From an uncultured Opitutia bacterium (lineage in GTDB: Bacteria; Verrucomicrobiota; Verrucomicrobiia; Opitutales; Opitutaceae), in contig CAIJFT010000180.1 of NCBI GenBank assembly GCA_903820035.1, positions 1-43,151 of the forward strand: DNA of 43,151 bases, given 5' to 3'. This document shows, piece by piece, positions 8,499 to 43,151 of the stretch (position 1 is the first letter of the stretch; each line of letters starts with the position of its first letter). Made by a program: the position numbers and the translations under genes. The notes below the pieces were generated by a model. It saw nothing but the letters and a program-made list of their open reading frames with translations. It did not search any database and was not told the origin of the DNA.

Positions 8499-8548
8499 CG
8501 ACTGACCGGCGCGTCAAACCGCGTCGCATCTTCCGCCTCACCGCACGC

Positions 8549-9880: not shown

Positions 9881-9911
9881 CCGTTCCTCCGCCGTCGCGG
9901 ATCCCTTGCCT

Positions 9912-10373: not shown

Positions 10374-10453
10374 CGGCGCATTGTCCGGCACGGCAAACCA
10401 ACGACGGCGGCGAACCGCCTCCGCCCCAAAAACCCGATCTCCTCGAGCTACTC

Positions 10454-11974
10454 ATGACGTCATCCCGTTTGTTTACTGTGACCGCCGCCCTGGCCGCTTC
10501 CCTCCTTGTCTGGAGCGCGCTGCCCGGACAACTGCGCGCGCGGGAGCTGTTGCTCGCGGGGCCGGCGGAGTTGTCCGCAGCCCTGAAAGCCGCCCGTCCC
10601 GGCGACATTCTGACCCTCAAGAACGGAACATGGCAGGATGCCAGTCTGGTGGTCGCGAAGGGCGGCGCGGCCGACCGGCCGGTTGAAATCAGGGCCGAGA
10701 GCCCGGGCGGCGTGACGTTGAGCGGTCAATCCTCCCTGACGGTGAACGCCGCGTACGTGACGGTCGACGGCCTGTTGTTTCAGGGCGGCGCGATCGAGCG
10801 GGGCGCCGTGATCCAGTTCAACTCCCACCACGGCACCGTGCGCAACACGGCGATTATCGACTACAATCCCGCGGCCTTTGCCACGGAGTACTACTGGGTG
10901 TTCTTCAACGGCAACGACAACGTAGTCGATCGCTGCTATTTCAAGGGGAAGAACAATCTGCAGCCACTGATCGGCAACGCCATTGAGGACAGTCGCCGCA
11001 ATTCCGTGACGCGGTCCTATTTCAAGAACATCCCCCACGTCGAAAAAGTAAACGGCCGGGAAATCATCCGCGTCTGGGGTTCGGGCAAAATTGAGGAGCG
11101 CGATGACGACGGCGCCTACTTCACCATCGCGGACAACCTGTTCGACCACGCCGACGGCGAAGGCACGGAAACGATCTCCCTCAAGTCGAACCACAACGTG
11201 GTGAAAAACAACACGGTCATCGCCACCCGCGGCGGCATCAACATTCGCCGCGGCAACTTCAATCGCGTCACCGACAACATTGTCCTCGGGCAGGGCGTCG
11301 AAGGCGCCCACGGCCTGCGGATGTCCGGCCGCGACAACGTCGTCCAGGGCAATTTCGTCTCGGGCGTCGACTACGGCATCCGCGTTTCGTGCGGCGAGTA
11401 CATCGCGGACGCGCTGACGTCGAGCTACGCGCCCGACGTGAAACCGAACGGTCGCCGCACCGCGCAGGTTCGCATTCCCACCTACCCTCAGGTCCTTCGC
11501 CTGCATTTGGCCAATAATACGATCGTGGGCTGTTCCGGGGCCGACATGGAAATCGGTTCGGATTACCGCAAACATTGGCCGGAGTCCCAACAAGTACTCC
11601 TGCCGGAGGACTGCGTGATTCGGGATAACCGCATTGTCCGCCCGGCGCTCGGCGAATCGGTTATCGTCACCTTCGCCGACCGCAGTCCGCCGCTCGATCG
11701 CTTCACGTTCAAGCCGAACCGCTATGCGAACAACGTCCTCGTCGGGCACGGCACCCTTGCCGGCGCCGCGCGCGACGGGTTCCTGATTCAGGATATACCG
11801 GCGGATTGGAAAGAGTCGCAGGAAAGCAAATCACTCCAGCCCCTTACGCCCGCCGACGTCGGACCCGCGTGGATCGTGACCCGGCGCCAGAGCGGCGATT
11901 TGACCATCGAGGACGCCCCTTCAGGCCCGCCCACTGGACCAACCGAATCCAAAAAGAAAAAGAAGAAGCGTTAG
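10454..11974 (+). CDS. Polysaccharide lyase family 6 (chondroitinase B / alginate lyase type)
   Basis: A 506-residue secreted beta-helix lyase that cleaves 4-linked uronate polysaccharides by beta-elimination. After a signal peptide (1 to about 30) come the PL6 opening AALKAARPGDILTLKNGTW and repeated beta-helix turns. The catalytic pair appears as Lys244 in ISLKSNHN and Arg265 in NIRRGNFN. Their 21-residue spacing equals that of the Lys250/Arg271 pair of Pedobacter chondroitinase B, as I recall it. The acidic EGTE just before Lys244 fits the calcium ligands. The family contains alginate lyases and dermatan-sulfate lyases; the surrounding iduronate-sulfatase-like genes favour a sulfated glycan, which is inference. 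The protein ends in SKKKKKKR, an unusual basic tail. The ATG at 10454 starts the signal peptide. Conserved downstream parts include NNTIVGCSGADMEIG. Confidence 0.92.
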   Translation: MTSSRLFTVTAALAASLLVWSALPGQLRARELLLAGPAELSAALKAARPGDILTLKNGTWQDASLVVAKGGAADRPVEIRAESPGGVTLSGQSSLTVNAAYVTVDGLLFQGGAIERGAVIQFNSHHGTVRNTAIIDYNPAAFATEYYWVFFNGNDNVVDRCYFKGKNNLQPLIGNAIEDSRRNSVTRSYFKNIPHVEKVNGREIIRVWGSGKIEERDDDGAYFTIADNLFDHADGEGTETISLKSNHNVVKNNTVIATRGGINIRRGNFNRVTDNIVLGQGVEGAHGLRMSGRDNVVQGNFVSGVDYGIRVSCGEYIADALTSSYAPDVKPNGRRTAQVRIPTYPQVLRLHLANNTIVGCSGADMEIGSDYRKHWPESQQVLLPEDCVIRDNRIVRPALGESVIVTFADRSPPLDRFTFKPNRYANNVLVGHGTLAGAARDGFLIQDIPADWKESQESKSLQPLTPADVGPAWIVTRRQSGDLTIEDAPSGPPTGPTESKKKKKKR

Positions 11975-12013
11975 CCGCGAAAGAGCCACGACGCCTTACC
12001 ACAGCCCTTCATC

Positions 12014-13570
12014 ATGAAAGCACTCTTCCACCAACTCCTCTTTGCCATCGCCGCTGTCGGGCTAGTCCGCGGCGCCGATTCTTCCCCGACCCGACCCAAC
12101 ATTCTGTTCATCGCCGTCGATGACCTGCGGCCGGAATTCGGCGCCTATGGGGCGGACTACATCAAGAGCCCCAACCTCGACCGCCTCGCCCGGGAGGGCA
12201 TGACGTTCCGCCGCGCCTATTGTCAGCAGGCCGTTTGCTCCCCCACCCGTTCAAGCCTTTTGACCGGCACCCGGCCGGACACCACGAAAGTGTGGGATCT
12301 CGTCACGCATTTCCGCGACGCCTTGCCGAACGTCGTGACGCTCCCGCAGCACTTCAAGGAACACGGCTACTTTGTCCAAGGCATGGGCAAAATCTACCAC
12401 GGGAGTTTGGATGACCCCCGCAGCTGGACCGTGCCCTGGGCCACGCCCCTTGCCGACACCTACGCGCTGCCGGAAAACGTCCAACTCAACGCGCGCCGCT
12501 ATGGCCTTGATCCCGACGACGCACCGGGCGCGCGCAAGGCGAAGGCCAAAGGCCAGGCCAAGGCGAAAAAGGCCGCGGCAACCGATCCCGATGCGACCCC
12601 GGCGCAAAAAAACATCCGTGGCCCGGCCTACGAGGGCGCCGATGTCCCGGACAACACCTTTCAGGATGGCAAAGTCGCCGAACTCGCGCTCACGACGCTC
12701 CGCGAGATGAGCCAGAAGAAGGAACCGTTCTTCCTCGCCGTGGGCTTCATCAAGCCGCACCTGCCGTTCATCGCGCCGAAGAAATACTGGGACCTCTACG
12801 ATCCCGCGCAGATCAAACTCGCCCCGAATTCGTTCCGCCCGAAGGACGCGCCCGACTATGCGATTTTGGACGGCGGCGAACTGCGCAACTATCACGGGAT
12901 TCCAGATGGTCATGTCCCCGACGATCTCGCCCGCCAGCTCAAGCACGGCTATTACGCGGCGATCAGTTACATGGACGCCCAAGTCGGCAAGGTGCTCGCC
13001 GAACTCGACCGCCTGGATCTGCGCAAGAACACGATCGTCATCCTCTGGGGCGACCACGGCTGGAAACTCGGCGAGCACGATGCCTGGTGTAAACACAGCA
13101 ACTGCGAGAACGACACCAACACCGCGCTCCTGTTGTCCGTCCCCGGCATGAAACAACGCGGGGCGCAAACCCAAGGGATTGTCGAGTTTGTCGACATCTA
13201 CCCGACGCTGGCCGAACTGGCCGGCCTGCCGCTGCCCAGCCACCTCGAAGGGATCAGTTTCAAACCGTTGCTCGACGATCCGACCCGCCGGTGGAAGTCC
13301 GCCGCCTTCAGCCAATATCCGCGGACGGCCGGCAAATCGGCCCTCGGCGCGCTGATGGGTTACGCGATGTGCACCGAGCGCTATCGCTTCGTGGTCTGGG
13401 TGGCGCGCGACGACCACCGCAAGGTCGACGCGATCGAGCTCTACGATCATCAAACCGACCCGCAGGAAAACACCAATATCGCCAAAATCCCCGCGAACGC
13501 CGCGCTTGTCGCCCAGCTCATGGCGCAATGGCGCCAAGGCTGGCAGGGAGCAAAGCCGGCGGTGAACTGA
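12014..13570 (+). CDS. Secreted sulfatase, iduronate-2-sulfatase-like, first of a tandem pair
   Basis: A 518-residue S1 sulfatase. The signal peptide ends near residue 21. Metal-binding Asp36-Asp37 lie in FIAVDDLRPEFG. The formylglycine motif is C75-SPT-R79 (CxPxR, with Thr rather than the usual Ser). The order VDDLRP, SPNLDRLA, QQAVCSPTR, LTGTRPDTT, then PQHFKEHGYF and GKIYH matches iduronate-2-sulfatase closely. GFIKPHLPF and WGDHGWKLGEHDAW complete the metal site. Residues 171-200 form a Lys/Ala-rich low-complexity insertion (KAKAKGQAKAKKAA). The gene lies 39 bp after the PL6 gene. Its paralogue follows 259 bp later with long stretches of identical residues. A role in removing 2-O-sulfate from uronates fits the lyase but is inferred from family resemblance only. 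Confidence 0.93.
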   Translation: MKALFHQLLFAIAAVGLVRGADSSPTRPNILFIAVDDLRPEFGAYGADYIKSPNLDRLAREGMTFRRAYCQQAVCSPTRSSLLTGTRPDTTKVWDLVTHFRDALPNVVTLPQHFKEHGYFVQGMGKIYHGSLDDPRSWTVPWATPLADTYALPENVQLNARRYGLDPDDAPGARKAKAKGQAKAKKAAATDPDATPAQKNIRGPAYEGADVPDNTFQDGKVAELALTTLREMSQKKEPFFLAVGFIKPHLPFIAPKKYWDLYDPAQIKLAPNSFRPKDAPDYAILDGGELRNYHGIPDGHVPDDLARQLKHGYYAAISYMDAQVGKVLAELDRLDLRKNTIVILWGDHGWKLGEHDAWCKHSNCENDTNTALLLSVPGMKQRGAQTQGIVEFVDIYPTLAELAGLPLPSHLEGISFKPLLDDPTRRWKSAAFSQYPRTAGKSALGALMGYAMCTERYRFVVWVARDDHRKVDAIELYDHQTDPQENTNIAKIPANAALVAQLMAQWRQGWQGAKPAVN

Positions 13571-13829
13571 GCGGGCTCATGCCGTTCAACGTTGGTCGCT
13601 GAAAGCTGGGTCCAAAACCAAAGTGTGGCAGCGCGTTTGAACGTCTGCTTAACCGGAGTCTCCTCCTGAGATTAGTCGCTCAACCCTCTACGTTCCACGG
13701 CACAATCTCGGCTGGGCGGCGGCGGCGGCGCCGCGCACTGCCGCCGCTTTGCCCGGCGCCGTTTAACAGTTCCTCTTTCGTCGGAATCTTGGTTGATTCC
13801 CGCACCGTTCCTTCCGCGCCAACCTTTCC
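13571..13829. other. Intergenic gap between the tandem sulfatases
   Basis: No gene is seen in these 259 bp. A very GC-rich inverted repeat (GGGCGGCGGCGGC pairing imperfectly with GCCGCCGCTTTGCCC) lies at about 13715-13757 and could form a stem-loop. The gap is much longer than other spacings in this gene set, so it may hold a separate promoter or a processing site for the downstream sulfatases. Confidence 0.4.
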
Positions 13830-15377
13830 ATGAAACGCCTGCTGCCCCGCCTTGCCCTGCTCGTACTCACGACCGCTGCGCTCGTTCGCGCCGCCGACCG
13901 CCCCAACGTACTCTTCATCGCCGTCGACGACCTGCGCCCGGAATTCGGCGCGTACGGCGCGGGCTACGTGAAGAGCCCGAACCTCGACCGGATCGCGCGG
14001 GAGGGCATCACCTTCAATCGCTCGTACTGCCAGCAAGCCGTGTGCTCACCCACGCGCTCCAGCCTGCTGACGGGAACGCGTCCGGATACCACCAAGGTTT
14101 GGGACCTCGTGACTCACTTCCGTGCGGCACTGCCCAATGTCGCAACCCTCCCGCAGCACTTCAAGAACCACGGCTACTTTGTGCAGGGCATGGGCAAGAT
14201 TTATCACGGCGGTTTTGATGATCCGGCCTCGTGGTCCGTGCCGTGGCAAACGCCGAAGGCCCCGACCTACGGCCGGGCCGAGAACCTGGCATTCAACCGC
14301 GGGCAGGACGGGGTCGATCCGGACGGCGATCCAAAGGCCACGAAGGGCAAGGGCAAAGGCAAGAAAGCCGCCGCACCGGTCACCGAGAAAAAGGTCAAGA
14401 CCCCCACGCCCAAGAATTCCCGCGGACCGGCCTTTGAAGGCTCCGACGTCCAGGACAACTATTTCCAGGATGGCAAGGTCGCCGAGCTCGCGCTCACGAC
14501 GTTGCGCGAAGTGAGCCAGAAAAAAGAGCCGTTCTTCCTCGCGGTAGGCTTCATCAAACCGCACCTGCCGTTCATCTCCCCGCAGAAATACTGGGATCTT
14601 TATAATCCCGCCGACATCAAGCTGGCGCCGAATAAATTCCGCCCCAAGGACGCCCCGGATTACGCCATTCAGCCCGGCGGTGAACTGCGCAACTATCGTG
14701 ATATCCCGGAGGGCTCGATCCCGGACGACGTGGCCCGCCAGCTGAAGCACGGCTATTACGCGGCGATCAGTTACATGGACGCCCAGGTTGGCAAAGTACT
14801 CGATGAACTCGACCGCCTCGACCTGCGCAAAAATACCATCGTCATCCTCTGGGGCGACCACGGCTGGAAACTCGGCGAGCACGACGCTTGGTGCAAACAC
14901 AGCAACTGCGAAAACGACACCAACACCGCCCTCCTCCTCTCCGTCCCCGGCATGAAGCAGCGCGGGGTGAAAACCAACTCGATCGTCGAATTCGTCGATG
15001 TCTATCCGACGCTCGCCGACCTTGCTGGCCTGCCGCTGCCCAGCCATTTGGAAGGACTGAGCTTCCGCCCGTTGGTGGATGACCCGCAGCGCCCCTGGAA
15101 GCAGGCGGCGTTCAGCCAATATCCGCGGCCCGGCGGCAAGTCCGGCAGCGGGCCGCTGATGGGCTACGCCATGCGGACCGACCGGTACCGGTTCGTGGTT
15201 TGGGTCGGCCGCGAAAACCATAGCAAGATCGACGCCATCGAACTTTACGACCATCAGGTCGACCCGCAGGAGAACCAAAACCTTGCGAAGCGCCCCGAGC
15301 ATAAAGCCCTCGTCGAAAAACTCATGGGGCAGTGGCGAGCCGGCTGGCAAGGCAACGGCCCGCTCGCGGCGAAGTGA
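13830..15377 (+). CDS. Secreted sulfatase, iduronate-2-sulfatase-like, second of a tandem pair
   Basis: A 515-residue S1 sulfatase paralogous to the gene before it. The signal peptide ends near residue 21 (LVRA). Asp33-Asp34 sit in FIAVDDLRPEFG; the formylglycine motif is C72-SPT-R76; the WGDHGWKLGEHDAW metal site is unchanged. Much of the protein, such as YYAAISYMDAQVGKVL and KHSNCENDTNTALLLSVPG, is identical in both copies, and a 37-39 nt DNA block around the first of these is also identical. This suggests a fairly recent duplication or gene conversion. A Lys-rich insertion is at residues 168-196 (TKGKGKGKKAA and EKKVKTPTPK), at the same place as in its partner but with a different sequence. 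The copies may have divided substrates or sulfate positions; nothing visible proves it. Confidence 0.93.
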   Translation: MKRLLPRLALLVLTTAALVRAADRPNVLFIAVDDLRPEFGAYGAGYVKSPNLDRIAREGITFNRSYCQQAVCSPTRSSLLTGTRPDTTKVWDLVTHFRAALPNVATLPQHFKNHGYFVQGMGKIYHGGFDDPASWSVPWQTPKAPTYGRAENLAFNRGQDGVDPDGDPKATKGKGKGKKAAAPVTEKKVKTPTPKNSRGPAFEGSDVQDNYFQDGKVAELALTTLREVSQKKEPFFLAVGFIKPHLPFISPQKYWDLYNPADIKLAPNKFRPKDAPDYAIQPGGELRNYRDIPEGSIPDDVARQLKHGYYAAISYMDAQVGKVLDELDRLDLRKNTIVILWGDHGWKLGEHDAWCKHSNCENDTNTALLLSVPGMKQRGVKTNSIVEFVDVYPTLADLAGLPLPSHLEGLSFRPLVDDPQRPWKQAAFSQYPRPGGKSGSGPLMGYAMRTDRYRFVVWVGRENHSKIDAIELYDHQVDPQENQNLAKRPEHKALVEKLMGQWRAGWQGNGPLAAK

Positions 15378-15378
15378 C

Positions 15379-15472
15379 CGAGACCATGAACAAGAAGGCC
15401 GGGGAGAGCGGAGAGACAAACGTCTCTGCCTCCACCCGCCCTTCCTGTTTCCCTGGTTTTGCTTTGGTCTCG
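15379..15472. repeat. Long imperfect intra-operon hairpin between sulfatases
   Basis: The 134-bp gap between the third and fourth sulfatases holds a long imperfect inverted repeat. The outer arms CGAGACCA (15379-15386) and TGGTCTCG (15465-15472) are exact complements. The inner arms are purine-rich on the 5' side and pyrimidine-rich on the 3' side and meet at GAGAC-AAAC-GTCTC. The structure resembles two other long hairpins in this window by design rather than by sequence. Confidence 0.6.
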
Positions 15473-15511
15473 AATCCACCGCGGCAGGTGCGACCGCGAA
15501 AAAACCTTCTC

Positions 15512-16933
15512 ATGAAACGACTCATTACCCTCCTGGCCGGCTTGCTCGTCCTACCCTTCGCCGCGCATTCGGCCGCGCCCCACCCCAACGTCCTCTTCAT
15601 CGTCGTCGACGACCTGAACCTCTCCCTTGGTTGTTACGGCAACCGTGACGTCAAATCGCCGAACATCGACCGGCTCGCCGCCCGCGGCGTGCGCTTCGAC
15701 CGCGCCTACGCCCAGTATCCGCTTTGCAATCCGAGCCGCGTCTCATTCCTCAGCGGCCGTCGCCCCGAAACCAGCGGCGTCTACGTCCTCACCATCCCGG
15801 CGCGCAAGGCGCTGCCTGAGGCCATCATGTTGCCGCAGTTCTTCCGGCAACAGGGCTACTTCTCCGCCGGCGCCGGCAAGGTCTACCATAACGCCCGCGG
15901 GAGTGATGCCGCCTCCTGGGACCAGTACCAAGACGGTGACGGCGAGGACGAACAGGAAAAGGCGGCAATCCAGTCGCGCTACGGCGGCGGTGACGGCCGC
16001 CCCCGCTGGCACGTGCTCGACAGCGACGGTTCCAAAATGAGGGACGGCCTCAACGCGACCACCATCCTCAATCAGCTCCGGGAGAAGTCCTCGGCCGGAA
16101 AGTCCTGGTTCCTCGCCGCCGGTTTCCACAAGCCGCACCTGCCCTGGACGGCGCCGAAGCGGTTCTTCGACTTGTATCCAGAAACCGGTATCACCCCGCC
16201 GGCCGAGCCCGCCCTGCAAGGCGTGCCGCCGATCGCCGTCCAAACGGAGTTGTCCGGGTTTGCGCAACCCGACTCGCGCGCCGGCGCGATCCGCGGCTAT
16301 TACGCGTGCATTTCCTACACCGATAGCCAGATCGGCCGCCTGCTCGACGAGCTCGACCGCCGCGAGCTCTGGCGCTCGACGCTCGTCGTGCTCGTGGGCG
16401 ACAACGGTTTTCACCTCGGCGACCACGGCGGCCTGTGGGCCAAACTCAGCGCCTACGACGCCGCCACGCGCGTACCGTTGCTCATCGCCGGCGCCGGCGT
16501 GCCCGCCGGTCGCGTCGTGACGAGCCCGGTGCAATTGCTCGACATCTATCCGACCCTCACCGAACTCGCCGGCTTCCCGGCTCCGGCCGGCCTCGAGGGC
16601 CGCTCACTCACCGCGCTGATGCACGGTCGCGGCGAAGCCAAGCCCGCCTACAGTCTGGTCTACCACTACGACGTTGCCGCCAAGCGCGACGTCGTCGGGC
16701 GCACGGTGATCGACGAACGCTGGCGCTACACGGAATGGGATCAAGGCGCCGCCGGCCGCGAGTTTTACCGGCGGAGCGACGATCCGGCGGAATACATCAA
16801 CCGAGTCGAGGATGCCGCCGTGCTCGCCGACCGTCGCACGGCCGCCGCCCTCTTGCAGCAGTTTCCGCAACCCAAGCCCGGCGCAGCCAACCGCCCGCGG
16901 GCGCTCGATCCGACGGCCAAAGCCGCCAATTAA
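15512..16933 (+). CDS. Secreted S1-family sulfatase, iduronate-2-sulfatase-like
   Basis: A 473-residue sulfatase with a signal peptide ending near residue 20 (AAHSA). Asp33-Asp34 lie in FIVVDDLNLSLGCYG. The formylglycine motif is C72-NPS-R76 in YPLCNPSRVSFLSGRRPET. GFHKPHLPW and VGDNGFHLGDHGGLWAK give the remaining metal-site and active-site segments. It is related to, but clearly distinct from, the tandem pair: it lacks the Lys-rich insertion and has DNG rather than DHG in the metal site. It is last in the rightward gene set and converges on yraN. The start at 15512 begins the signal peptide, and the codons upstream pass through the hairpin region. It probably acts on the same polysaccharide at a different sulfate or residue. 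Confidence 0.93.
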   Translation: MKRLITLLAGLLVLPFAAHSAAPHPNVLFIVVDDLNLSLGCYGNRDVKSPNIDRLAARGVRFDRAYAQYPLCNPSRVSFLSGRRPETSGVYVLTIPARKALPEAIMLPQFFRQQGYFSAGAGKVYHNARGSDAASWDQYQDGDGEDEQEKAAIQSRYGGGDGRPRWHVLDSDGSKMRDGLNATTILNQLREKSSAGKSWFLAAGFHKPHLPWTAPKRFFDLYPETGITPPAEPALQGVPPIAVQTELSGFAQPDSRAGAIRGYYACISYTDSQIGRLLDELDRRELWRSTLVVLVGDNGFHLGDHGGLWAKLSAYDAATRVPLLIAGAGVPAGRVVTSPVQLLDIYPTLTELAGFPAPAGLEGRSLTALMHGRGEAKPAYSLVYHYDVAAKRDVVGRTVIDERWRYTEWDQGAAGREFYRRSDDPAEYINRVEDAAVLADRRTAAALLQQFPQPKPGAANRPRALDPTAKAAN

Positions 16934-30486: not shown

Positions 30487-30756
30487 TCAGAGGCGCTTGC
30501 GGCCGAGCGATACCCGCATCCAAGCCCGCTCGTGGAGATAAAACAGCACGATCTTGGTCATCACCTCGACGCCGGCGATGCCGCTCGAAAGCTGCAACGC
30601 CTGCACCCGATTGCCGTCCGTAACACCGGTGAAAGTCAGGACGACAAAGCTCACACAAAACGTATCGAGCGTGCCGACACAGCGCCAACTGATGGCCTTG
30701 ATGACGCTGCGGAGCCGCGTTTCGCGGTAGACGGGGATTTCAGGGGGGGTACTCAT
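30487..30756 (-). CDS. DUF2061 membrane protein in the sulfate activation operon
   Basis: An 89-residue protein of the DUF2061 family. It shows RSVIKAISWRCVGTLDTFCVSFVVLTFTG, then the VEVMTKIVLFYLHERAWMR segment that defines the family. Two hydrophobic segments (about 31-47 and 57-75) suggest a small inner-membrane protein. Function is unknown. Its ATG overlaps the cysN stop by four bases (ATGA), so it is translationally coupled to the GTPase subunit of ATP sulfurylase. From memory, DUF2061 genes often accompany cysteine or sulfate assimilation genes in other phyla. A role in sulfate uptake or membrane tethering of the sulfurylase would be a guess. Confidence 0.88.
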   Translation of the reverse strand: MSTPPEIPVYRETRLRSVIKAISWRCVGTLDTFCVSFVVLTFTGVTDGNRVQALQLSSGIAGVEVMTKIVLFYLHERAWMRVSLGRKRL

Positions 30757-32078
30757 ATAACGTAGTCTCCGACCTCGGGCTTCACCACCTCACGCGGCGG
30801 CATGAGCATGCCGGCGGCGACGGTGGCGTTCGTGCCCTGTTCGATCAAAATGAACGAACCGGTGAGCCGGTTCGTCGCGTAACCATCAAATACCAGCGGC
30901 TTGGCCGTGCGAATGCGGATCTCGCCGATATCATTCATCGCGAGCCGGCCGGGCGCGTCCTCCGTGTCGAGCGTGGACATGTTGAGCTTGTTGACCACTT
31001 CCGTAACGACCGCTTGGACGGTGTGCGCGGTGTGCTTGAGGTAATACTTTTTACCCGGCTCGAGCGGCCGCGAGTGCATCCAGCACACGTCGGCATCCAG
31101 CTCGGTGGCGGCACCCGGCAGGTGCGCCGCGCCGATGAGCATACTGCCGCGGCTGATGTCGATGTCGTGTTCAAGGACGAGCGTGACCGACTGCGGGCAA
31201 AACGCCTCATCAACCGGACCGTCAAAGGTCCAGATCTGTTTCACCGTCGTGACGATGCCGGCGGGCAGCGCAAGGACCCGTTGTCCGACCCGAACGATAC
31301 CGCCCGCGATCTGACCGCTGAAGCCGCGGAAATCGTGCAGCGCCGCATCCGTCGGGTTGTTGGGTCGGTTGACCCATTGCACGGGCAATCGAAATGCCTG
31401 CAGGTTCCAGTCGCTCGCGATGTGGACGGTCTCAAGGTGACCGAGCAGCGTCGGACCGGCGTACCACGGCGTGTGCGGCGAGGGATCGACGACATTGTCA
31501 CCGTTGAGCGCGCTCATCGGGATGAACTTCACATCCTTGATGTCGAGCCGCGGCAGGAATTCCTCGAACTGCGCCCGAATCTCCATGAAGCGCTGCTCGC
31601 TCCAGCCGACGAGGTCCATCTTGTTGACGGCCACGACCAGGTGGGGAATCCGCAGCAGCGATGCGATCGCAGTGTGGCGGCGGCTCTGCTCGATCACTCC
31701 CGTACGCGCGTCGACGAGAATGATGGAGAGGTTGGCCGAGGAGGCGCCCGTCACCATGTTCCGCGTGTACTGCACGTGACCGGGCGTATCGGCGATGATG
31801 AACTTCCGGCGCGGCGTGGCGAAATAGCGGTAGGCCACGTCGATCGTGATCCCCTGCTCGCGCTCGGCCCGCAGGCCATCGGTGAGATTGGCCAGATTGA
31901 TCTGCCCACCACCCGTGATGTCGGCGGAACGCTCGAGGGCCTCGATCTGATCCTCCATGAGCGACTTTGAATCGTAGAGCAGACGGCCGATGAGGGTCGA
32001 TTTACCGTCGTCGACGCTGCCGCAGGTGTTGAAGCGGAGGATGTCGACGGGGACGTTAACGGGAGCGGACGATGACAT
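30753..32078 (-). CDS. cysN: Sulfate adenylyltransferase subunit 1 (GTPase) CysN
   Basis: The 441-residue GTPase subunit of ATP sulfurylase. With CysD it makes adenylyl sulfate (APS) from sulfate and ATP, driven by GTP hydrolysis. The EF-Tu-like G domain has GSVDDGKS at 20-27, DTPGH at 97-101 and NKMD at 152-155. Two beta-barrel domains follow. It ends soon after GSFILIEQGTNATVAAGM and has no C-terminal APS kinase domain, unlike NodQ/CysNC fusions. The gene lies 113 bp after cysD, with a long hairpin in the gap, and overlaps the DUF2061 gene by 4 nt. Confidence 0.96.
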   Translation of the reverse strand: MSSSAPVNVPVDILRFNTCGSVDDGKSTLIGRLLYDSKSLMEDQIEALERSADITGGGQINLANLTDGLRAEREQGITIDVAYRYFATPRRKFIIADTPGHVQYTRNMVTGASSANLSIILVDARTGVIEQSRRHTAIASLLRIPHLVVAVNKMDLVGWSEQRFMEIRAQFEEFLPRLDIKDVKFIPMSALNGDNVVDPSPHTPWYAGPTLLGHLETVHIASDWNLQAFRLPVQWVNRPNNPTDAALHDFRGFSGQIAGGIVRVGQRVLALPAGIVTTVKQIWTFDGPVDEAFCPQSVTLVLEHDIDISRGSMLIGAAHLPGAATELDADVCWMHSRPLEPGKKYYLKHTAHTVQAVVTEVVNKLNMSTLDTEDAPGRLAMNDIGEIRIRTAKPLVFDGYATNRLTGSFILIEQGTNATVAAGMLMPPREVVKPEVGDYVI

Positions 32079-34996: not shown

Positions 34997-35826
34997 TCGT
35001 CGCCCTGATCGACAACGGCTCCCTCGAACCCGCAGCCCACCGCAACCTCCGGGCGGTGGCGGACGCGGTGGCGGCCAATTCCGGTGTGAAGGTCCACGCC
35101 GTCTCTTGGAAACACAGCGATCGCATCTCGGCCGACGCCCTCGACGGCACGGCGGCGTGGTGCCTGCCGGCCTTCATCGGCGCCATGCGGGCGCTGGGCC
35201 ACCAGAGCTTCCTGTTCATCCCGTTTTTCATCAGTGCCCAGGGCGCGGTGGGGTCTGCCCTCCGACGTGACCTGGAAAACCTTCAAGTCGCCGCCGGCAC
35301 CGACCGCTTTGAGTTCGGCTTCACCGAGGGTCTGGCGGCTCACGGCGTGATTCCCGCCATCGTCGCCGACCGGATCCGCGCAACCAAGGCCGAATTGAAA
35401 CTCGTCTGCCCGCCCGTCATCGTCGTCGATCACGGCGGTCCGTCCCCTACCTCCGGCTCGCTGCGGGACACCATCGCCGCCGCGGTGCGCACGCTGCTCG
35501 GAAGCGAAATCAGCGCGCTGACCGCCGCCTCGATGGAGGGCGAGGACCATCCGCACAACCTTCCGCTGCTCGCCGACCAACTGGCGCAGCCCGGCTTCAA
35601 CCACGGCGATGTCGTCGTCGCGCCCCTGTTTCTTTCCCCCGGCCGGCACGCCGGCCCCGGCGGCGACCTCGCGGAAATCGCCACGGCCGCCGAAGATCAC
35701 GTTGCCGGAACCGCGCTCCGCTGCCATTTCACCGCCCTCGTCGGCCACCACCCCCTCGCCCTCGAGGCGCTGACGCGGGCCTTGCGCCACGCCCTTTCCC
35801 CTGTTCACGCTGAATCTTCTCCATGA
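34993..35826 (+). CDS. CbiX/SirB-type sirohydrochlorin chelatase, two-domain
   Basis: A 277-residue protein with two CbiX-like halves, predicted to insert iron into sirohydrochlorin. The second half keeps VVDHGGPSPTSG, GEDHPHNLPLLADQLA and the PLFLSPGRHAGPGGD segment with conserved His. The first half begins LIDNGSLEPAAHRNLR, where the usual HGS of single-domain chelatases reads NGS, so its catalytic His appears lost. Similar DNGS starts exist in other CbiX-type proteins, as I recall. It is sandwiched between cobA and cysI with 4-nt ATGA overlaps on both sides, which strongly ties it to siroheme for sulfite reductase. Iron rather than cobalt is inferred from this context. Confidence 0.87.
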   Translation: MIVALIDNGSLEPAAHRNLRAVADAVAANSGVKVHAVSWKHSDRISADALDGTAAWCLPAFIGAMRALGHQSFLFIPFFISAQGAVGSALRRDLENLQVAAGTDRFEFGFTEGLAAHGVIPAIVADRIRATKAELKLVCPPVIVVDHGGPSPTSGSLRDTIAAAVRTLLGSEISALTAASMEGEDHPHNLPLLADQLAQPGFNHGDVVVAPLFLSPGRHAGPGGDLAEIATAAEDHVAGTALRCHFTALVGHHPLALEALTRALRHALSPVHAESSP

Positions 35827-37568
35827 GTTCCACGTCCACTCCCGCCACCGCGAAGCCCTTGCACAAGAACGAGACCATCAAGGCCGAGAGCAATTTTCTC
35901 CGTGGCAACATCCTGCGCGACCTCGCCGATCACTCCACCGGGACCATCACCGATGACAGCGGGCAGCTGACCAAATTCCACGGCATCTACGCCCAGGACG
36001 ACCGCGACCTGCGCAACGAGCGCCGCCGCGAAGGCAAAGAGAAGGCCTTCAGCTTCATGGCCCGGGTCCGCGTCCCCGGCGGCATCTGCACCCCCGGCCA
36101 GTGGCTCGCCCTCGACCGCATCGCCGACGAAGAGGCCAACCAAACCCTGAAGCTTACCACGCGGCAGGCGTTCCAGTTCCACGGCGTCGTCAAGGCCGAC
36201 CTCTGGCGCGCGATCAATCGGATCAACCGCTCGCTCCTCGATACCATCGCCGCCTGCGGTGACGTGAATCGCAACGTCATGTGCAATCCGAACCCCGAGC
36301 GTTCCGAACTGCACACCGAAGTTTATCAGGTCTCCAAAGCCATCAGCGAGCACCTCCTGCCGCGCGCCCGCGCCTACCATGAGCTCTGGGTCGGCGACGA
36401 TCTCGTCGCCGGCGGCGAGGCCGAGGACGAACCGATCTACGGCAAGACTTACCTGCCCCGCAAATTCAAGATCGTGATCGCCGTGCCGCCGAGCAACGAC
36501 GTCGACATCTACGGGCACGACCTGGGCTACATCGCGATCACCGACGCAAACGGCAAGCTCGTCGGCTTCAACGTCACCGTCGGCGGCGGCCTCGGCATGT
36601 CGCACAACCAGCTCGAAACCTTCCCGCGCATCGCTGACGTCATGGGCTTCTGTACCGTGCAGCAGGCCGTCGAGGTCGCGGAAAAGGTGCTGATGGTCCA
36701 ACGTGACTTCGGCGACCGGACCGATCGCAAGCACGCCCGCCTCAAGTACACGATCGAAGACCGCGGGCTGCCGTGGTTCCAAAACGAGGTTGAACAACGT
36801 CTCGGCTACCGCCTCGGCGCGCCGCGAGCCTTTGCCTTCACCCACACGGGCGACCGCTACGGCTGGGTCGACAGTCACGACGGCCGGTCGCATTTCACCC
36901 TCTTCATCCAGAGCGGCCGCGTGAAGGACACGCCGGAGTACAAGCTGAAGACCGCACTCCGCGAACTCGCGCTGGCGCACAAGGGCGATTTCCGCCTCAC
37001 CGCCAACCAGAATCTCATCATCGCCAACGTCGCCCCCTCCGATCGCCCGCAAATCGAGGCATTGCTGAAGAAGCACGGTCTCCATACGGCGAACAACGCC
37101 TCGGGCCTGAAGCTGAGCGCCATGTCGTGCGTCGCGTTGCCCACCTGCGGCCTCGCCCTCGCGGAAAGTGAACGGTACCTCCCTGAATTGGTCACGCTGC
37201 TGGAAGCGGAATTTGAAGCCGCTGGTCTGCGCCACGACGATGTCACCCTGCGTATCACCGGCTGCCCCAACGGCTGCGGCCGACCTTACCTCGCCGAGAT
37301 CGGCTTTGTCGGCAAGTCGCCCGGCAAGTACAACGTCTACCTCGGCGCGGCCCACAACGGCTCGCGGCTGAATATTCTCTACAAGGCCAACCTGCCCGAG
37401 ACGGAGATTGTCGCGGTCCTCGGCCCCATCATTCGCCGCTACGCTCTCGAAAGGAACCAAGGCGAAACCTTCGGTGATTTCGTGATCCGCGCCGGCTACG
37501 TCACTCCGACCTTCACCCCGCAGGACTTCCACGAGCAGCCGAAAGCGCCCAAATCCGCGACACCCTGA
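35823..37568 (+). CDS. cysI: Assimilatory sulfite reductase hemoprotein subunit CysI
   Basis: A 581-residue siroheme and 4Fe-4S enzyme reducing sulfite to sulfide. Cluster ligands are Cys436 and Cys442 (CVALPTC) and Cys481 and Cys485 (CPNGC). The spacing is identical to Cys434/440/479/483 of E. coli CysI as I recall. Other segments are LKLTTRQAFQFHG, the NRNVMCNP loop, LPRKFKIVIA and NVTVGGGLGMSHN. No flavoprotein subunit (CysJ) gene follows, so electrons may come from ferredoxin or a CysJ elsewhere. It is the last gene of the rightward siroheme and sulfite set, overlapping the chelatase by 4 nt, and is followed by a hairpin. Confidence 0.96.
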   Translation: MSSTSTPATAKPLHKNETIKAESNFLRGNILRDLADHSTGTITDDSGQLTKFHGIYAQDDRDLRNERRREGKEKAFSFMARVRVPGGICTPGQWLALDRIADEEANQTLKLTTRQAFQFHGVVKADLWRAINRINRSLLDTIAACGDVNRNVMCNPNPERSELHTEVYQVSKAISEHLLPRARAYHELWVGDDLVAGGEAEDEPIYGKTYLPRKFKIVIAVPPSNDVDIYGHDLGYIAITDANGKLVGFNVTVGGGLGMSHNQLETFPRIADVMGFCTVQQAVEVAEKVLMVQRDFGDRTDRKHARLKYTIEDRGLPWFQNEVEQRLGYRLGAPRAFAFTHTGDRYGWVDSHDGRSHFTLFIQSGRVKDTPEYKLKTALRELALAHKGDFRLTANQNLIIANVAPSDRPQIEALLKKHGLHTANNASGLKLSAMSCVALPTCGLALAESERYLPELVTLLEAEFEAAGLRHDDVTLRITGCPNGCGRPYLAEIGFVGKSPGKYNVYLGAAHNGSRLNILYKANLPETEIVAVLGPIIRRYALERNQGETFGDFVIRAGYVTPTFTPQDFHEQPKAPKSATP

Positions 37569-37932: not shown

Positions 37933-38775
37933 TTCCGATTCTTGCCGGTCACGCGCCGACGCCGGTGCGGATCGCACCGGCAGCGCAGTTGGAATCACAC
38001 CCACGACCCTTTCCACCTCACCCCAAGGCGAGGTGGAGGGGATACGATAGAGCCGGTGACCGGAGTCACCGCCGCTCAAGGATTCCGCCAAGGCAGTATC
38101 CCTCCGGCAAGCGCTCCAACCGGAATGGGCCGATCGGCACCTCGTGCCGCTGCGGGGCACGGATTACGACGGGGCAATGAACCGAAAGTCTCCCTCTGGG
38201 CACTGACAAATTGTCGTCCGGCGTTTGGTCGCAATGATCCGCCAAAAGATTTCGGCGTCTCCCAGGGGACGAAAAATCAGTCCGCCGAAATGATCGGCAA
38301 GAGCGACATCGTGATCTGAAAGATCAGCCAAAATATCTGTGTCGGCGGGAGATCAGGCGGGTGAAATCTCCTGCGCCAGAAGGCCCCCGTTTGGGATAAA
38401 AAACCCTACGAGGTGCGAGCAGCCGGAAAAGTGAGGTGTCAAAAAGGGGTGCGATTGGGAACGGGTCAAAGTGGCGCAAATCGCGATGCCTCCCAACCAA
38501 TTCCGCGATACCGTATCAGCCACGGCGTGACGTCGGATGTGTACCAATATTTACCAACGCGTCGGATTGGGGACACGCCAGGTTGACGCGGGTAGCGCGC
38601 CTTACCCCCAATTTGGGTACAGCCCGCGCTTGCCCACGGCAGCGAGACGGCCGGAGGGATCTCCCTCCCGAATGTGGACCCGCGTGGAAGAACATGAGAC
38701 GCGCTCAGCGGGTCGGACGCCCGCACTCCGCACTTGAACAGTCCACGCATTTCGCATCGGGTCGGCGCCGTCGCG
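37933..38775. other. 843-bp region without a recognised gene, with several hairpins
   Basis: No reading frame here looks protein-like. Three clean stem-loops lie near its start: GCCGGTGCG-GAT-CGCACCGGC at 37961-37981, CCACCTC-N10-GAGGTGG at 38013-38036 and CGGTGAC-CGGA-GTCACCG at 38054-38071. A 3' part (about 38200-38570) is less GC-rich than the flanks and has A-runs (AAAAAACCC, CAAAAAGG). It probably contains the promoter of the downstream sigma factor gene. A small RNA is possible but not supported by a known family. Confidence 0.5.
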
Positions 38776-39324
38776 ATGCCACCCCACCCGGAACAAGCCC
38801 AATGGTTTGCCGATCAAATCCAACCGCACGATGGTCGGCTCAAGGCCTATCTGCGCGGGGCGTTTCCGACCGTGCGCGATGTCGACGATGTCGTGCAGGA
38901 ATCCTACCTCCGCGTGTGGCGCGAGTGCGCCAAGGGTCCGATTCGTTCGGCCCGGGCGTTTCTCTTCACGGTCGCGCGGCGCCTCGCGATCGACGGCACG
39001 CGCCGGGCGAAGGCCTCGCCGATCGAGACGGTCGCGGACCTCGCGGGCCTTCCGTTCGCGGATCCGGCGATGGATGTCTCCGGCGAAGTCGAACAGCGCG
39101 AGCGCGTCGCCATTCTCGGCGACGCGATCGGGCGCCTCCCGCAGCGCTGCCGCGAGGTGTTTTTGCTCCACAAGATTCATGGCCTGTCGCGCCGCGAGAC
39201 GGCGGAGCGGCTTGGGCTCGCGGAAAAAACCGTCGAGGTGCAGACCGCGCGGGCGATGGAACGGTGCGGCGAGTACCTGCGGCAACGGGGTGTAACGGGG
39301 CTTTTTTCCGATGAACGCGCCTGA
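38776..39324 (+). CDS. ECF RNA polymerase sigma factor, FecI-like
   Basis: A 182-residue sigma-70 family protein of the extracytoplasmic-function group. Region 2 includes LKAYLRGAFPTVRDVDDVVQESYLRVWRE and ARAFLFTVARRLAIDGTRR. Region 4 includes LGDAIGRLPQRCREVFLLHKIHGLSRRETAERLGLAEKTVEVQTARAMERC, a typical helix-turn-helix. It would direct transcription when released by the FecR-like protein encoded next. The ATG at 38776 (MPPHPEQAQWF) is used; an upstream TTG is unlikely. It overlaps the fecR-like gene by 14 nt, which implies coupled synthesis of sigma and its regulator. Confidence 0.94.
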   Translation: MPPHPEQAQWFADQIQPHDGRLKAYLRGAFPTVRDVDDVVQESYLRVWRECAKGPIRSARAFLFTVARRLAIDGTRRAKASPIETVADLAGLPFADPAMDVSGEVEQRERVAILGDAIGRLPQRCREVFLLHKIHGLSRRETAERLGLAEKTVEVQTARAMERCGEYLRQRGVTGLFSDERA

Positions 39325-40186
39325 TTCCCACTCCGAGAACATCCGCGCCACGGAAGACGCGCTGCGCTGGATGCGCGGCGCCAACGTCGAATCCGCCCTT
39401 CTCGGCGAGGTGTCCCGCACCGTGCGTGGCCGCCGGCGGCGACGCACCGCCGTGCTCGCCGGAGTCGGCGCGCTCGCCCTGGGGCTTTCACTTTTTTCGG
39501 TGACGCGCCGGGAAGCGCCGCCAGCGCCCGCCACGACGACTGCAGTCGTCACCGCGCCACGCCGGGAGACTCTGGCGGACGGCAGCGTGGTCGTGCTACG
39601 CGAAGGGGCGGAGATCGCCACCGATTTTTCCGCTGGGATGCGGCGCGTGACATTGCGGCACGGCGAGGCTCATTTCGAAGTGGTGAAGGATCCCGCGCGG
39701 CCGTTCATCGTGAGTGTGACCGGCGTGGAGGTGCGCGCGGTCGGCACCGCCTTTTCCGTCGGTCTCGGCGGCACGGCGGTCGAGGTGTTGGTCACGCACG
39801 GGCGCGTCGCGGTCGGAACCGTGGCCACCGCACCCGCCTTCGTGGATGCCGGGCAGCGGGCCCACGTCGCAGATACCGGAGCGACACCCGAGGTGAGCGT
39901 GATCTCCGCCACCGAGATGGCTCAGGCGCTCGCGTGGCGCGCGCCGCAGATTGAGTTTTCCCGAACGCCGCTGGCCGAGGCGGTGGCCTTGATCAACGCC
40001 CACCTGCCGCCCGAACAGCGCCGCATCGCCGCCGATCCCGGCGCGCCACCACTGCGCGACCTGCGGCTCAGCGGTTTCCTGGCCGCGGACAACGCGGAGG
40101 GTTTCCTGCTGCTGTTGGAGAGCACCTTCGGCCTCAGCGCCGACCGCACCGGCAGCGACGTAATCGTGCTCCGCTCGGGACGCTGA
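39311..40186 (+). CDS. FecR-like anti-sigma factor / signal transducer
   Basis: A 291-residue inner-membrane protein. A cytoplasmic N-terminus (about 1-44) ends in GRRRRR, then comes one membrane segment (TAVLAGVGALALGLSLFSV, about 46-64). The periplasmic FecR domain follows (ETLADGSVVVLREGAEIATDFSAGMRRVTLRHGEAHFEV, then VRAVGTAFSV). The C-terminus has an STN-like segment (FSRTPLAEAVALINAHL to STFGLS) that normally contacts the receptor signalling domain. It links the STN receptor encoded downstream to the sigma factor upstream. It lies 170 bp before the receptor gene. Confidence 0.93.
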   Translation: MNAPDSHSENIRATEDALRWMRGANVESALLGEVSRTVRGRRRRRTAVLAGVGALALGLSLFSVTRREAPPAPATTTAVVTAPRRETLADGSVVVLREGAEIATDFSAGMRRVTLRHGEAHFEVVKDPARPFIVSVTGVEVRAVGTAFSVGLGGTAVEVLVTHGRVAVGTVATAPAFVDAGQRAHVADTGATPEVSVISATEMAQALAWRAPQIEFSRTPLAEAVALINAHLPPEQRRIAADPGAPPLRDLRLSGFLAADNAEGFLLLLESTFGLSADRTGSDVIVLRSGR

Positions 40187-40356: not shown

Positions 40357-43151
40357 GTGCGTCTTCCCTTCGTGCCCCTTTCGCTCCGTCTTCGCGCCCG
40401 CCGGCGCATCATCCCCTTGCTCGTCGCAGGGGCGTGGTGCCTCATCGGCGCGATAAGCTTGCGCGGAGCCGAGACGGCGCGGCGGGCCTTTGATCTGCCG
40501 GCGGGTGAAGCGGAGCCGGCCCTCAAGCGTTTCTCCCAGCAAGCGGGCGTGCAGCTGGTGTTCGACAGCCGCATCGTAGAGGGCGTGCAGGTGAACGCGG
40601 TGCGCGGCGACTTTACCCCGCTTGAGGCCGCCCAGCGCCTGCTCGCCGGCACCCTCCTCCGCGCCCACCGCGATGAACGAAGTGGCATCGTCAGCATCGA
40701 ACGCGACCCCGCCGCCCCCTTCCCGCCAAAAAAAGACCCGGCGCGCACTGATCCTCCGCCGTCCGCGCGCGCCCTTTCCGAAGCCGGACCCGATTCCTCC
40801 CATCAAACCGAAACCATGAAACCCTCCCGATCGTTTTTTGCCACCCTCGCCAGCTGGCTCCTTGTCTCGACCGCCGCTGAGGCGCAGACGTCCGACCCGC
40901 TCAAGCCGGCCGGCGCCGAAGATCCGTCCAGCCCCAAAGCATCAAGCGGAGTCGTCTCCCTGTCGCCCTTTGAGGTCTCGGAATCCGCGGACAACGGCTA
41001 TGCCGCGGCCAGCACGCTGGCGGGCAGCCGCATGAATACTGATCTGCGCAATACGTCGGCGTCCATTTCCGTCTTCACCAAGGATTTCTTGCGCGACATC
41101 GGCGCGCTGAACCTCAACGACGCACTCGCCTACGCCCTCAACGGCGGCAACGAATACACGACCTTGACCGGATTGGGCGCCCGCGATCGCGAGGTCAACG
41201 TGCAGCTCCGCGGCTTCGTCAACGCCACGGTCACGCGCAACTTTTTTCCCTGGGCACTTTCGGGCGACGCTTTCAACACGGAGCGACTCGATTTTTCCCG
41301 CGGCCCCAACTCCATCCTCTTCGGCACCGGCAGCCCCGGCGGCGTGGTGAACACGACCACCAAGCGCGCGCGCTTCGGCAAGTCGATCACCGAGCTGGGG
41401 CTGCGCGTGGGCAGCTGGGACGACTACCGGGTCACCTTCGACGTCGGCCGTCAGGTCAACGACCAGCTGGCCATCCGGATCAACGGCCTGCGGCAGCAGA
41501 AGAAATCGTGGCGCGACTTTGAGAATCTAGATCGCACCAGCGGGGCGTTGGGCGTCACCTATCGCCCTTTCAAGCACACCGAGGTGCGCGTCGATGCCGA
41601 ATACGGCAAGGGCCACCAAGTGGTCGCGAATCCGTTTCGCACCGGCGACAAAGTCTCGGCGTGGCTGGCCGCGGGAAAACCCATCTCGCCCAACGATACC
41701 ACCGTCGTCGGCGGCACGCAGGCGGCCGCTTCCAACCAACTGACCTACGATCCCTTTGGGATCACCGGGCCAACCGCTTGGCGCGGCGTCCAACAGACGA
41801 TTAACGCGCTCCCTGTCGGATCGAACATCCAACTTCGGCGCTCGTTCACCGATGAGTCCGTGCTGCCGCGCTCCAGTAATGTTTTCGGCCCCGGCGCCTG
41901 GGTGAATTTTCCCTACCACAATTATTCTGTCTTTCTCGAACAACGCTTCGGCAAGCTCACGGCGGAGCTCGCCTATAATCGCCAGTGGGAGCACCGCACC
42001 TACACGCAGCCGCTGATTTACAACGTAGCGAATCTGCAGGCCGATCCCAACGCCCTGCTGCCCAGTTTTCCGCTGCCGAACGGCCAACTCGCGCCCAACG
42101 CCGGCAAGCCCAATCCGAACGCCGGAAAGTTTTTCGTCGAGAGCGCCAACGCCATCGCCTGGCGGGATCGCTCGGACAATAACTACCGCGCGACCCTCGC
42201 CTACGAGCTGGACCTCAGCAAACACTCAGCGTGGCTCGGGACGCATCGCCTGGCCGGACTGGTCAGCCGCAGCGAAGCGTTTTCCTACACGGACGGAATG
42301 CAAGAGGTGAACATCGCGCCGCCGGGCACGACCACTTATCCGTTGGACGTTACCAATGCCAACAACGTCCTCCTGCGGCGCACCTACCTCGATTTCACGA
42401 CGCCCGACGCCCGCTGGCACGGCCAGCATGATCCCCTGCTCTTCCCGATCAATAACCTCAACGGAATAACCACCGGCTATCGCCGGATTGCCAACCAGAG
42501 CGTGCCGTCGCTCAGCCGGACCGATACGCGCATGGTGGCGTCGCAGAGTTCGTGGTGGCAGGACCGATTGTATGTCACCGCCGGTGTGCGCCGCGATGAG
42601 TTGGACGCCTTTGGCCCCGGCACCGTAATTCTGCGCGACCCGGTGACCAGCGAGTTTCTGCGGCGCAGCATGCTGTCCGCCCCGACGCTCTCCACCGCCG
42701 GCACCACGCAGACCGCCGGTGGCGTCTTTCACGCGTTCCGCTGGCTCTCGCTGATCTACAACCGGGCCAATAATTTTGTGCCGCAGACGGCGCTCGACAT
42801 CAATGCCCAGCCAATCGGAGCGGTGGCCGGCAAAGGCGAAGACGCCGGGGTCCGTCTCACGCTCTGGGACGGCAAGGTCAACCTCACGGTGATGCACTAC
42901 GAGACCACGCGGGAAAACCAGGTGCTCAACATCGCCAACAATCAGAACCTGCGAAGCTACATTAACGGAATCTGGTCGGCCATGGGCCGGTCGGAAAAAC
43001 TCATCGACTTGCAGTCCATCGACACCGTGTCCAACGCTGGCAAGGGCTGGGAGGTGGAGCTGATTGCCAACCCGACCAAGCGCTGGCGGCTCTCGGCCAA
43101 CTACAGCCAAACCGACGTGAATCAAACGGACACGTTCCTGCGCTCCGCCGT
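40357..43151 (+). CDS. TonB-dependent receptor with N-terminal STN signalling domain (FecA type), 3' end outside the window
   Basis: The first 931 codons are present; the frame is open to the right edge. Residues 1-38 give a signal peptide (RRRIIPLLVAGAWCLIGAISL). The STN domain is at about 44-116 (FDLPAGEAEPALKRFSQQAG to GIVSIER). The Pro-rich linker then runs into MKPSRSFFATLASWLLVSTA at residues 154-173, followed by AEAQ, which looks exactly like a second signal peptide. After it come LSPFEV at 202-207, the plug (SISVFTKDFLRDIG, LRGFVN, LDFSRGPNSILFGTGSPGGVVN) and the barrel. Upstream sigma and FecR genes fit a signalling receptor. Alternatively a shorter, ordinary receptor begins at ATG 40816, but that lacks a ribosome binding site. 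It may sense and import a sugar, siderophore or other ligand. Confidence 0.92.
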   Translation, partial: MRLPFVPLSLRLRARRRIIPLLVAGAWCLIGAISLRGAETARRAFDLPAGEAEPALKRFSQQAGVQLVFDSRIVEGVQVNAVRGDFTPLEAAQRLLAGTLLRAHRDERSGIVSIERDPAAPFPPKKDPARTDPPPSARALSEAGPDSSHQTETMKPSRSFFATLASWLLVSTAAEAQTSDPLKPAGAEDPSSPKASSGVVSLSPFEVSESADNGYAAASTLAGSRMNTDLRNTSASISVFTKDFLRDIGALNLNDALAYALNGGNEYTTLTGLGARDREVNVQLRGFVNATVTRNFFPWALSGDAFNTERLDFSRGPNSILFGTGSPGGVVNTTTKRARFGKSITELGLRVGSWDDYRVTFDVGRQVNDQLAIRINGLRQQKKSWRDFENLDRTSGALGVTYRPFKHTEVRVDAEYGKGHQVVANPFRTGDKVSAWLAAGKPISPNDTTVVGGTQAAASNQLTYDPFGITGPTAWRGVQQTINALPVGSNIQLRRSFTDESVLPRSSNVFGPGAWVNFPYHNYSVFLEQRFGKLTAELAYNRQWEHRTYTQPLIYNVANLQADPNALLPSFPLPNGQLAPNAGKPNPNAGKFFVESANAIAWRDRSDNNYRATLAYELDLSKHSAWLGTHRLAGLVSRSEAFSYTDGMQEVNIAPPGTTTYPLDVTNANNVLLRRTYLDFTTPDARWHGQHDPLLFPINNLNGITTGYRRIANQSVPSLSRTDTRMVASQSSWWQDRLYVTAGVRRDELDAFGPGTVILRDPVTSEFLRRSMLSAPTLSTAGTTQTAGGVFHAFRWLSLIYNRANNFVPQTALDINAQPIGAVAGKGEDAGVRLTLWDGKVNLTVMHYETTRENQVLNIANNQNLRSYINGIWSAMGRSEKLIDLQSIDTVSNAGKGWEVELIANPTKRWRLSANYSQTDVNQTDTFLRSA

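Follow-up and report, generated by a model that had tools for sequence, protein, structure and literature searches.

For TonB-dependent transducers such as FecA, FoxA and PupB, which signal with partners of the FecI/FecR type, it is an open question how a signalling domain that is part of an outer-membrane protein contacts, across the periplasm, the anti-sigma factor in the inner membrane. The overproduced signalling domain of FoxA blocks signalling by protecting FoxR, and its normal release by a protease was proposed (PMC11637429). Short and long products of one gene are described for E. coli dnaX, in which gamma is made via the heptamer A_AAA_AAG (PMC3711429), and for copA, a membrane pump gene in which a −1 shift gives a 70-aa N-terminal product (PMC5009743). 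In E. coli tests, V_VVA_AAR heptamers were among the most efficient, and proven insertion-sequence cases include A_AAA_AAC, and A_AAA_AAA together with a stem-loop (PMC4066793). The receptor gene described here lies at one end of a stretch of 43,151 nt of contig CAIJFT010000180.1 (assembly GCA_903820035.1) of an uncultured Opitutia bacterium of the family Opitutaceae; the whole stretch is called the window. Like FecA, FoxA and PupB, the gene codes for a signal peptide, an STN fold and a plug, and genes for an extracytoplasmic function (ECF) sigma factor and FecR are adjacent to it; unlike them, it carries a second signal peptide, placed after STN and before the plug, as well as a putative frameshift cassette. 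Comparison of relatives shows that the gene is a chimera, that the cassette and its −1 stop are conserved, and that the second signal peptide recurs with a start codon. With rather better than even confidence, we read the product as a FecA-type transducer that may also release its signalling domain via a −1 frameshift.

A chimeric receptor gene with an internal signal peptide

The receptor frame (40357-43149, forward strand) starts with a GTG preceded by a strong Shine-Dalgarno (SD) sequence (ggagggg, duplex −10.0 kcal/mol) and is open to the window end, giving 931 aa, with its 3′ end beyond the window. It runs through a first signal peptide (SP1, 40357-40467, cleavage site placed by eye), the STN domain (40468-40707, approximately residues 38-117), a Pro/Ala-rich linker, a second signal-peptide-like segment beginning at Met-154 (SP2, 40816-40887), the LSPFEV motif with which the receptor proper opens (40960-40977) and a TonB plug (PF07715, residues 230-330, 41044-41346); the barrel is cut by the window end. 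A homologue in genome G025 (CANJIU010000002.1, an Opitutae bacterium metagenome-assembled genome; genomes and loci bear our G and L numbers) is 92% identical over residues 1-340, has the same frame, the same start and the internal segment, and reaches 1102 aa from the same GTG, which is identical there together with the preceding 20 nt. An earlier note, made from the sequence alone, had read one frame from a well-supported GTG through a signal peptide, STN and a second signal peptide to LSPFEV, and this layout is confirmed by the domains, the SD and G025. Directly 5′ of the frame, on the same strand, lie genes for a FecI-like ECF sigma factor (38734-39324; Sigma70_r2, Sigma70_r4_2 and FecI-type models) and a FecR anti-sigma factor (39311-40186; PF04773 at E 1e-14 and the FecR model).

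Pfam PF07660 (STN) matched the window protein at E 7e-4, under the gathering score, and the NCBIfam FecA model matched residues 31-108 at E 1.9e-9, far below the model's cut-off. The match among PDB sequences was the PupB signalling domain (E 3.5e-7). The AlphaFold model of residues 38-126 (mean predicted local distance difference test score, pLDDT, 80.9) matched the signalling domains of PupB, FoxA and FecA, and the best PDB structure in Foldseek was the PupB domain complexed with the anti-sigma factor PupR (E 5e-7, TMq 0.78). Judged by sequence and predicted structure, the domain is a FecA/PupB/FoxA-type signalling domain, and by the features tested the protein belongs with the FecA-type TonB-dependent transducers, with ligand-dependent sigma activation as the predicted function.

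The STN and receptor halves of the gene have different nearest relatives. Identity to G018 was 79% in STN and 29% in the barrel, and identity to a receptor of G008 that has no STN (L034/L204) was 67% in SP2, 79% in the plug and 80% in the barrel. SP2 (MKPSRSFFATLASWLLVSTAAEAQ, residues 154-177) reads MKPSRS-FFATLASWLLVST-AAEA-Q, with a basic n-region, a hydrophobic core and A-x-A, and aligns with the homologous N-terminal signal peptide of the G008 receptor. In a tree of plug regions (76 rows: 25 with SP2, 29 with STN and no SP2, 22 without STN; a quick method, with three long rows flagged), the window receptor groups with L034 (approximate likelihood ratio support, SH-aLRT, 100), and L033/L035 fall in another clade. 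The breakpoint between the halves lies at or just before SP2, and SP2 is thus what was once the N-terminal signal peptide of an entire receptor. The chimeric origin is well supported by these comparisons, and with it the view of the earlier note that a domain capture fused an STN module 5′ of a complete receptor gene.

The internal segment is also found in many other loci. In the genus set, a hydrophobic segment was present in the post-STN linker of 33 of 68 deduplicated STN open reading frames (ORFs) of at least 400 aa, a frequency that is overstated because the window protein, which has SP2 itself, served to fetch part of the set. One of these (L132) was the plug itself; the remaining 32 had a start codon within 19 codons at the segment start, ATG in 29 and GTG in 3, against ATG in 18% of random 19-codon windows, a control that covers ATG and not GTG. 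In other genera of the family, the linker of 12 of 51 STN ORFs contained such a segment, one of which (L253) was the plug, and ATG was present in 10 of the other 11, so that a start codon was kept in 42 of 43 internal segments. SP2 was also present in 15 of 40 loci taken in rank order, though not from every row, out of an STN-only search. On the plug-region tree, the SP2 label needs 14 changes, at least nine of them forced by starred branches. A sequencing or assembly error as the source of the internal signal peptide, which the earlier note had held open, is ruled out by the 92%-identical G025 homologue and this recurrence; on sequence evidence, the double signal peptide is real and recurrent.

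Other signal peptide arrangements were seen among the loci. L255 (G082) has an internal signal-peptide-like segment without a preceding start codon, possibly a decayed SP2. In L066, L077, L098, L106, L119, L120 and L130, the second signal peptide separates STN from a domain that by eye is carboxypeptidase-regulatory-like; the receptors with this domain are a different subfamily. In L040/L086 (G005), an STN-SP2 receptor contains an in-frame TAG within the plug region.

A heptamer, hairpin and stop behind the STN fold

Just after the STN fold, which in the AlphaFold model stops at about residue 116, the junction reads CC A_AAA_AAA GACCC GGCGCGC ACTGATCCTCCGCCGTCCGC GCGCGCC (40726-40773), an arrangement that the earlier note had overlooked. 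The slippery heptamer lies in phase with the 0 frame at codons 125-126 (40728-40734) and is separated by a 5-nt spacer from a predicted 7-bp GC hairpin (arms at 40740-40746 and 40767-40773; −17.7 kcal/mol). A −1 shift at the heptamer would reach a TGA at 40749-40751, giving a predicted product of 131 aa that ends in PPKKRPGAH. A crossing second stem (pseudoknot) between spacer and loop could be drawn by eye in individual sequences, but its register differed from one to the next, and it is not claimed.

On paper, the cassette resembles the dnaX and copA sites. Its heptamer fits A_AAA_AA(A/G), with a long 0-frame and a predicted short −1 product as in dnaX (PMC3711429), and copA is likewise a gene for a membrane transport protein in which a −1 shift gives a small N-terminal product (PMC5009743). 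The window gene differs from dnaX in being unrelated to it, in a short product that is a predicted exported signalling domain, in having A_AAA_AAA for A_AAA_AAG, and in that no upstream SD-like element was seen. dnaX also has a near −1 stop and a hairpin downstream of the heptamer, to which the predicted hairpin of the window would correspond. The copA short product is a putative cytosolic copper chaperone, whereas that of the window gene is a predicted periplasmic signalling domain.

The cassette was first noticed in loci fetched by protein similarity. A search of 252 family genomes with a pattern that required A7, GGCGCGC and GCGCGC, leaving spacer length, loop length and the TGA free, gave matches in 30 genomes. 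Among 30 loci from this search, 8 had an STN match, all with the cassette at the junction, and 22 had none; a further match, G086:C452, had no locus. Five of the 8 (L001, L032, L033, L035, L084) had already been seen without the pattern. A covariance model built from the 8 yielded five more and brought the total to 13 loci with the cassette at the STN-receptor junction, spread over 12 genomes and four genera. The heptamer is A_AAA_AAA in nine loci, A_AAA_AAC in one (G007) and C_CCA_AAA in three (G243 and both G224 loci). The −1 stop is TGA in all 13, five codons on in 12 and six codons on in one (L214 being read separately), and the −1 tail before this stop is nearly constant (KKSPGAR, KKRPGAH, PKRDGAR and similar) while the 0-frame residues vary. 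Of 12 cassette loci examined for their neighbours, the window among them, 10 have ECF and FecR genes upstream.

Weaker matches of the model comprised 18 loci (L174-L191), with no STN match at E 0.01, and matches without a locus, which were left unexamined except G224:C25:4410-4452; this one was the 13th cassette (L214). Contig C25 of G224 carries two cassette-bearing STN receptors, L214 and L208, about 6 kb apart. An order-wide search with the model in 372 genomes, evenly drawn and overlapping the family set, gave five genomes at E ≤ 0.001. G000 and G018 were known members; the weak matches in G084, G233 and G386 (another family, E 5.5e-4; its locus L201 was not inspected) were not accepted.

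A V_VVA_AAR heptamer with a −1 stop within 10 codons was found in 9 of 65 genus linkers and in none of 13,000 windows taken from other parts of these ORFs. When the same proteins were re-encoded with the same codon usage, 0.1 such loci were expected, with a maximum of 2 in 1000 runs, against the nine observed; because re-encoding leaves the protein unchanged, this control is not biased by a selection of loci for protein similarity. Four of the nine have the cassette (L001, L032, L033, L084) and five have A9-A10 runs (L038, L047, L058, L059, L130), and they are not nine independent events because L001/L032 and L058/L059 are close pairs. Among random positions, 8.3% have a −1 stop within seven codons, and GCT, the codon that creates the TGA in most loci, accounts for 4.8% of Ala codons. 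Lys-Lys is encoded by AAAAAA in 22 of 24 cases in the genus linkers (overlapping pairs counted) and in 2 of 41 elsewhere; the corresponding figures for other genera are 5 of 8 and 3 of 39. Runs of A7 or longer number 13 in 187 kb of these ORFs, and 10 of them begin 0-75 nt past STN. In other genera, the heptamer alone was found in 4 of 51 STN ORFs, with 52 of 10,200 controls having the heptamer and none the heptamer with the stop; L245, a truncated ORF in which an A10 run has a near stop, was too short for this count. A7 runs out of V_VVA_AAR heptamer phase were seen in the STN linker of five loci of other genera (L222, L226, L264, L280, L281).

Conservation of the cassette and of its −1 stop is strongly supported by these comparisons, and the cassette is probably a working −1 ribosomal frameshift site. 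Several points weigh against this view and against the release of STN that would follow from it. As the search pattern fixed A7 and the hairpin arms, conservation of those letters in 8 of the 13 loci is by selection. For the same reason, the cassette figure is inflated in the codon comparison, a result in favour of the cassette in which the same amino acid had the same codon in 256 of 284 cases in the cassette against 883 of 1730 in STN (nine sequences, 36 non-independent pairs; G227 and G243, with indels, G094, with a broken STN, and L214 left out). Relative to shuffled sequences, the hairpin is modest, with z of −2.1 to −2.3 alone and only −1.05 with its flanks; no covariation of the hairpin was found among the cassette loci, and no SD-like stimulator was visible by eye 5′ of the heptamer in the window sequence. 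Such an upstream stimulator is known for dnaX and is not needed at every −1 frameshift site. The heptamer with a near −1 stop is a minority trait, present in 0 of 51 sampled STN ORFs of other genera, and among the 40 loci of the STN-only search it occurs only in L130 and L131, where the runs are A9 and this hairpin is absent. The STN of G094 occupies two other frames close to a contig end. SP2 is missing from cassette locus L084, and a heptamer of this kind from most SP2 loci; the two features are therefore separate traits that come together in the window.

Possible release of the signalling domain, and other readings

The reading favoured here can be put as a series of steps, in which we infer that ribosomes shift frame and how often, what becomes of SP2 and what free STN does. 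An STN module with an ECF sigma/FecR pair and a built-in −1 cassette would have been fused, in the same frame, to the 5′ side of an entire receptor gene, which kept its own start codon and signal peptide. Ribosomes from GTG 40357 would translate SP1 and STN; at A_AAA_AAA, with the GC hairpin 5 nt on, some would slip to −1 and stop at 40749-40751, and the 131-aa preprotein would be exported via SP1 as a free STN of about 94 aa. Other ribosomes would stay in the 0 frame and make the STN-SP2-receptor fusion, in which SP2 may either persist as part of the linker or be a substrate of signal peptidase; ATG 40816 may also start an STN-less receptor. Free STN would be expected to bind FecR and set its stability or sensitivity; by analogy, we give an action on FecR even chances. 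Release of STN as a separate periplasmic peptide, as the earlier note suggested, is plausible, and the best-supported route to it would be the −1 cassette at 40728-40773. The release proposed for FoxA is proteolytic (PMC11637429), whereas that of the window gene would depend on a putative frameshift.

If free STN is made by design, these loci would give independent evolutionary support to the domain-release model (PMC11637429). They would also offer a clean genetic test, since altering the heptamer synonymously is expected to abolish the free domain without affecting the receptor protein. A cell-surface receptor would then join the cellular genes thought to use programmed frameshifting, and receptors with a signal peptide in the middle would be explained. 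Our literature search, with most subscription journals outside its coverage, found no paper that describes frameshifting or slippage for TonB-dependent transducers, and none on a signal peptide located internally, behind STN.

STN and receptor are encoded separately in some relatives. In L074, L075, L076 and L081, a long ORF with a signal peptide begins, in another frame, where an STN-only ORF of 166-196 aa ends or a few codons before that end, and an A8-A9 run lies just ahead of the junction. At E 1e-25, the long ORF of L074 matches the window receptor; by eye, the long ORFs of L075, L076 and L081 look like the carboxypeptidase-like-domain subfamily, and they gave no match to the window receptor at E 1e-3. 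In L250, L254 and L279, the neighbour downstream of the STN-only ORF is an ORF that matches the window receptor (E 7e-30 to 2e-32 in L250 and L279, 2e-30 in L254). With L074, these three loci have separate, adjacent STN and receptor genes, and a free exported STN next to a receptor, as predicted from such genes, is therefore an existing arrangement in the family. L038, L047, L058, L059 and L130 are in-frame fusions in which the A9-A10 runs have near stops in other frames. Tentatively, and with a little less than even confidence, STN may in this family be a diffusible periplasmic signalling subunit and not a fixed receptor arm, with its release built into the genes by alternative means that can replace one another (−1 frameshifting, poly-A slippage, adjacent but separate genes, internal signal peptide) and the module swapped between receptors together with its sigma/anti-sigma pair and cassette. 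In L277 (G091), an STN-only ORF of 185 aa is followed directly by a second, complete STN receptor frame.

The rival readings are not mutually exclusive, and the chances given to them do not add to one. An ordinary fusion, with a FecA-like full-length protein, SP2 as a tolerated leftover and the A-run and GC repeat as functionless linker codons, would agree with the tree and the half-by-half identities, from which the fusion is clear, with the many STN receptors in which SP2 or the heptamer is absent, and with a hairpin lacking covariation. We consider it improbable, as such a relic is at odds with the start codon kept in 42 of 43 internal segments, with the synonymous constraint, with the replacement of the heptamer by other slippery heptamers and with the TGA in 13 of 13 loci. 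The product could also be a polyprotein, exported through SP1 at full length and cut by signal peptidase after SP2 as well, so that STN is freed from every molecule and the slippery site tunes the ratio or is idle. SP2 has the basic start, hydrophobic core and A-x-A that this calls for and is the signal peptide of a close STN-less receptor, and separate STN and receptor genes occur. However, SP2 would sit behind an already exported domain, where signal peptidase normally does not meet a signal peptide, and cassette locus L084, without SP2, would be left unexplained; we rate the polyprotein as unlikely.

The earlier note had raised ATG 40816 as the start of a second, non-signalling form, beside the signalling receptor that begins at GTG 40357. 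Ribosomes that have stopped at the −1 stop, 64 nt before this ATG, might reinitiate there; two starts are possible, though clearly short of even odds. Retention of a start codon at the internal segments speaks for it, as do the overlapping stop-start pairs in L074 and L081. An SD at −4.5 kcal/mol or better precedes none of 33 internal starts and 3 of 20 presumed starts of STN-less receptors, which also fits two starts, and 29% of 517 random internal ATG codons have one; the C-rich linker may alone account for the low SD score, and ATG 40816 itself has no SD. Missing SDs were dropped as an argument against internal starts, as STN-less receptors are mostly without SD too. The A-run might instead act by RNA polymerase slippage or as a phase-variable tract. 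In Thermus thermophilus dnaX, transcriptional slippage at an A9 run gives full-length and short products, and nine As is the length at which slippage is under counter-selection in many genomes (PMC1088944). The in-frame A9-A10 runs and the out-of-frame A8-A9 runs of the relatives described above would suit such a mechanism, and the comparison with T. thermophilus fits these A9-A10 relatives, not the 7-A site of the window. As the run is of seven in the window and most cassette loci and of only four in the C_CCA_AAA loci, and as a hairpin with a fixed −1 stop fits ribosomal frameshifting, we hold slippage or phase variation at the window site to be very doubtful.

Other receptors and enzymes encoded in the window

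Two further TonB receptors of the same LSPF family, both without STN, are encoded at 3067-6042 and 6093-8498 on the forward strand, each with one signal-peptide-like start by eye, and the genome has 106 places matching the window receptor, which are pieces of fewer genes. Near these two receptors, at 8279-16933 of the same strand, the translations by eye include four sulfatase-like ORFs and a polysaccharide-lyase-like ORF, a set that suggests the use of a sulfated polysaccharide. Also by eye, a nitrite/sulfite-reductase-like ORF (35823-37568, forward strand) lies not far from a CysN-like ORF on the reverse strand (30753-32078).

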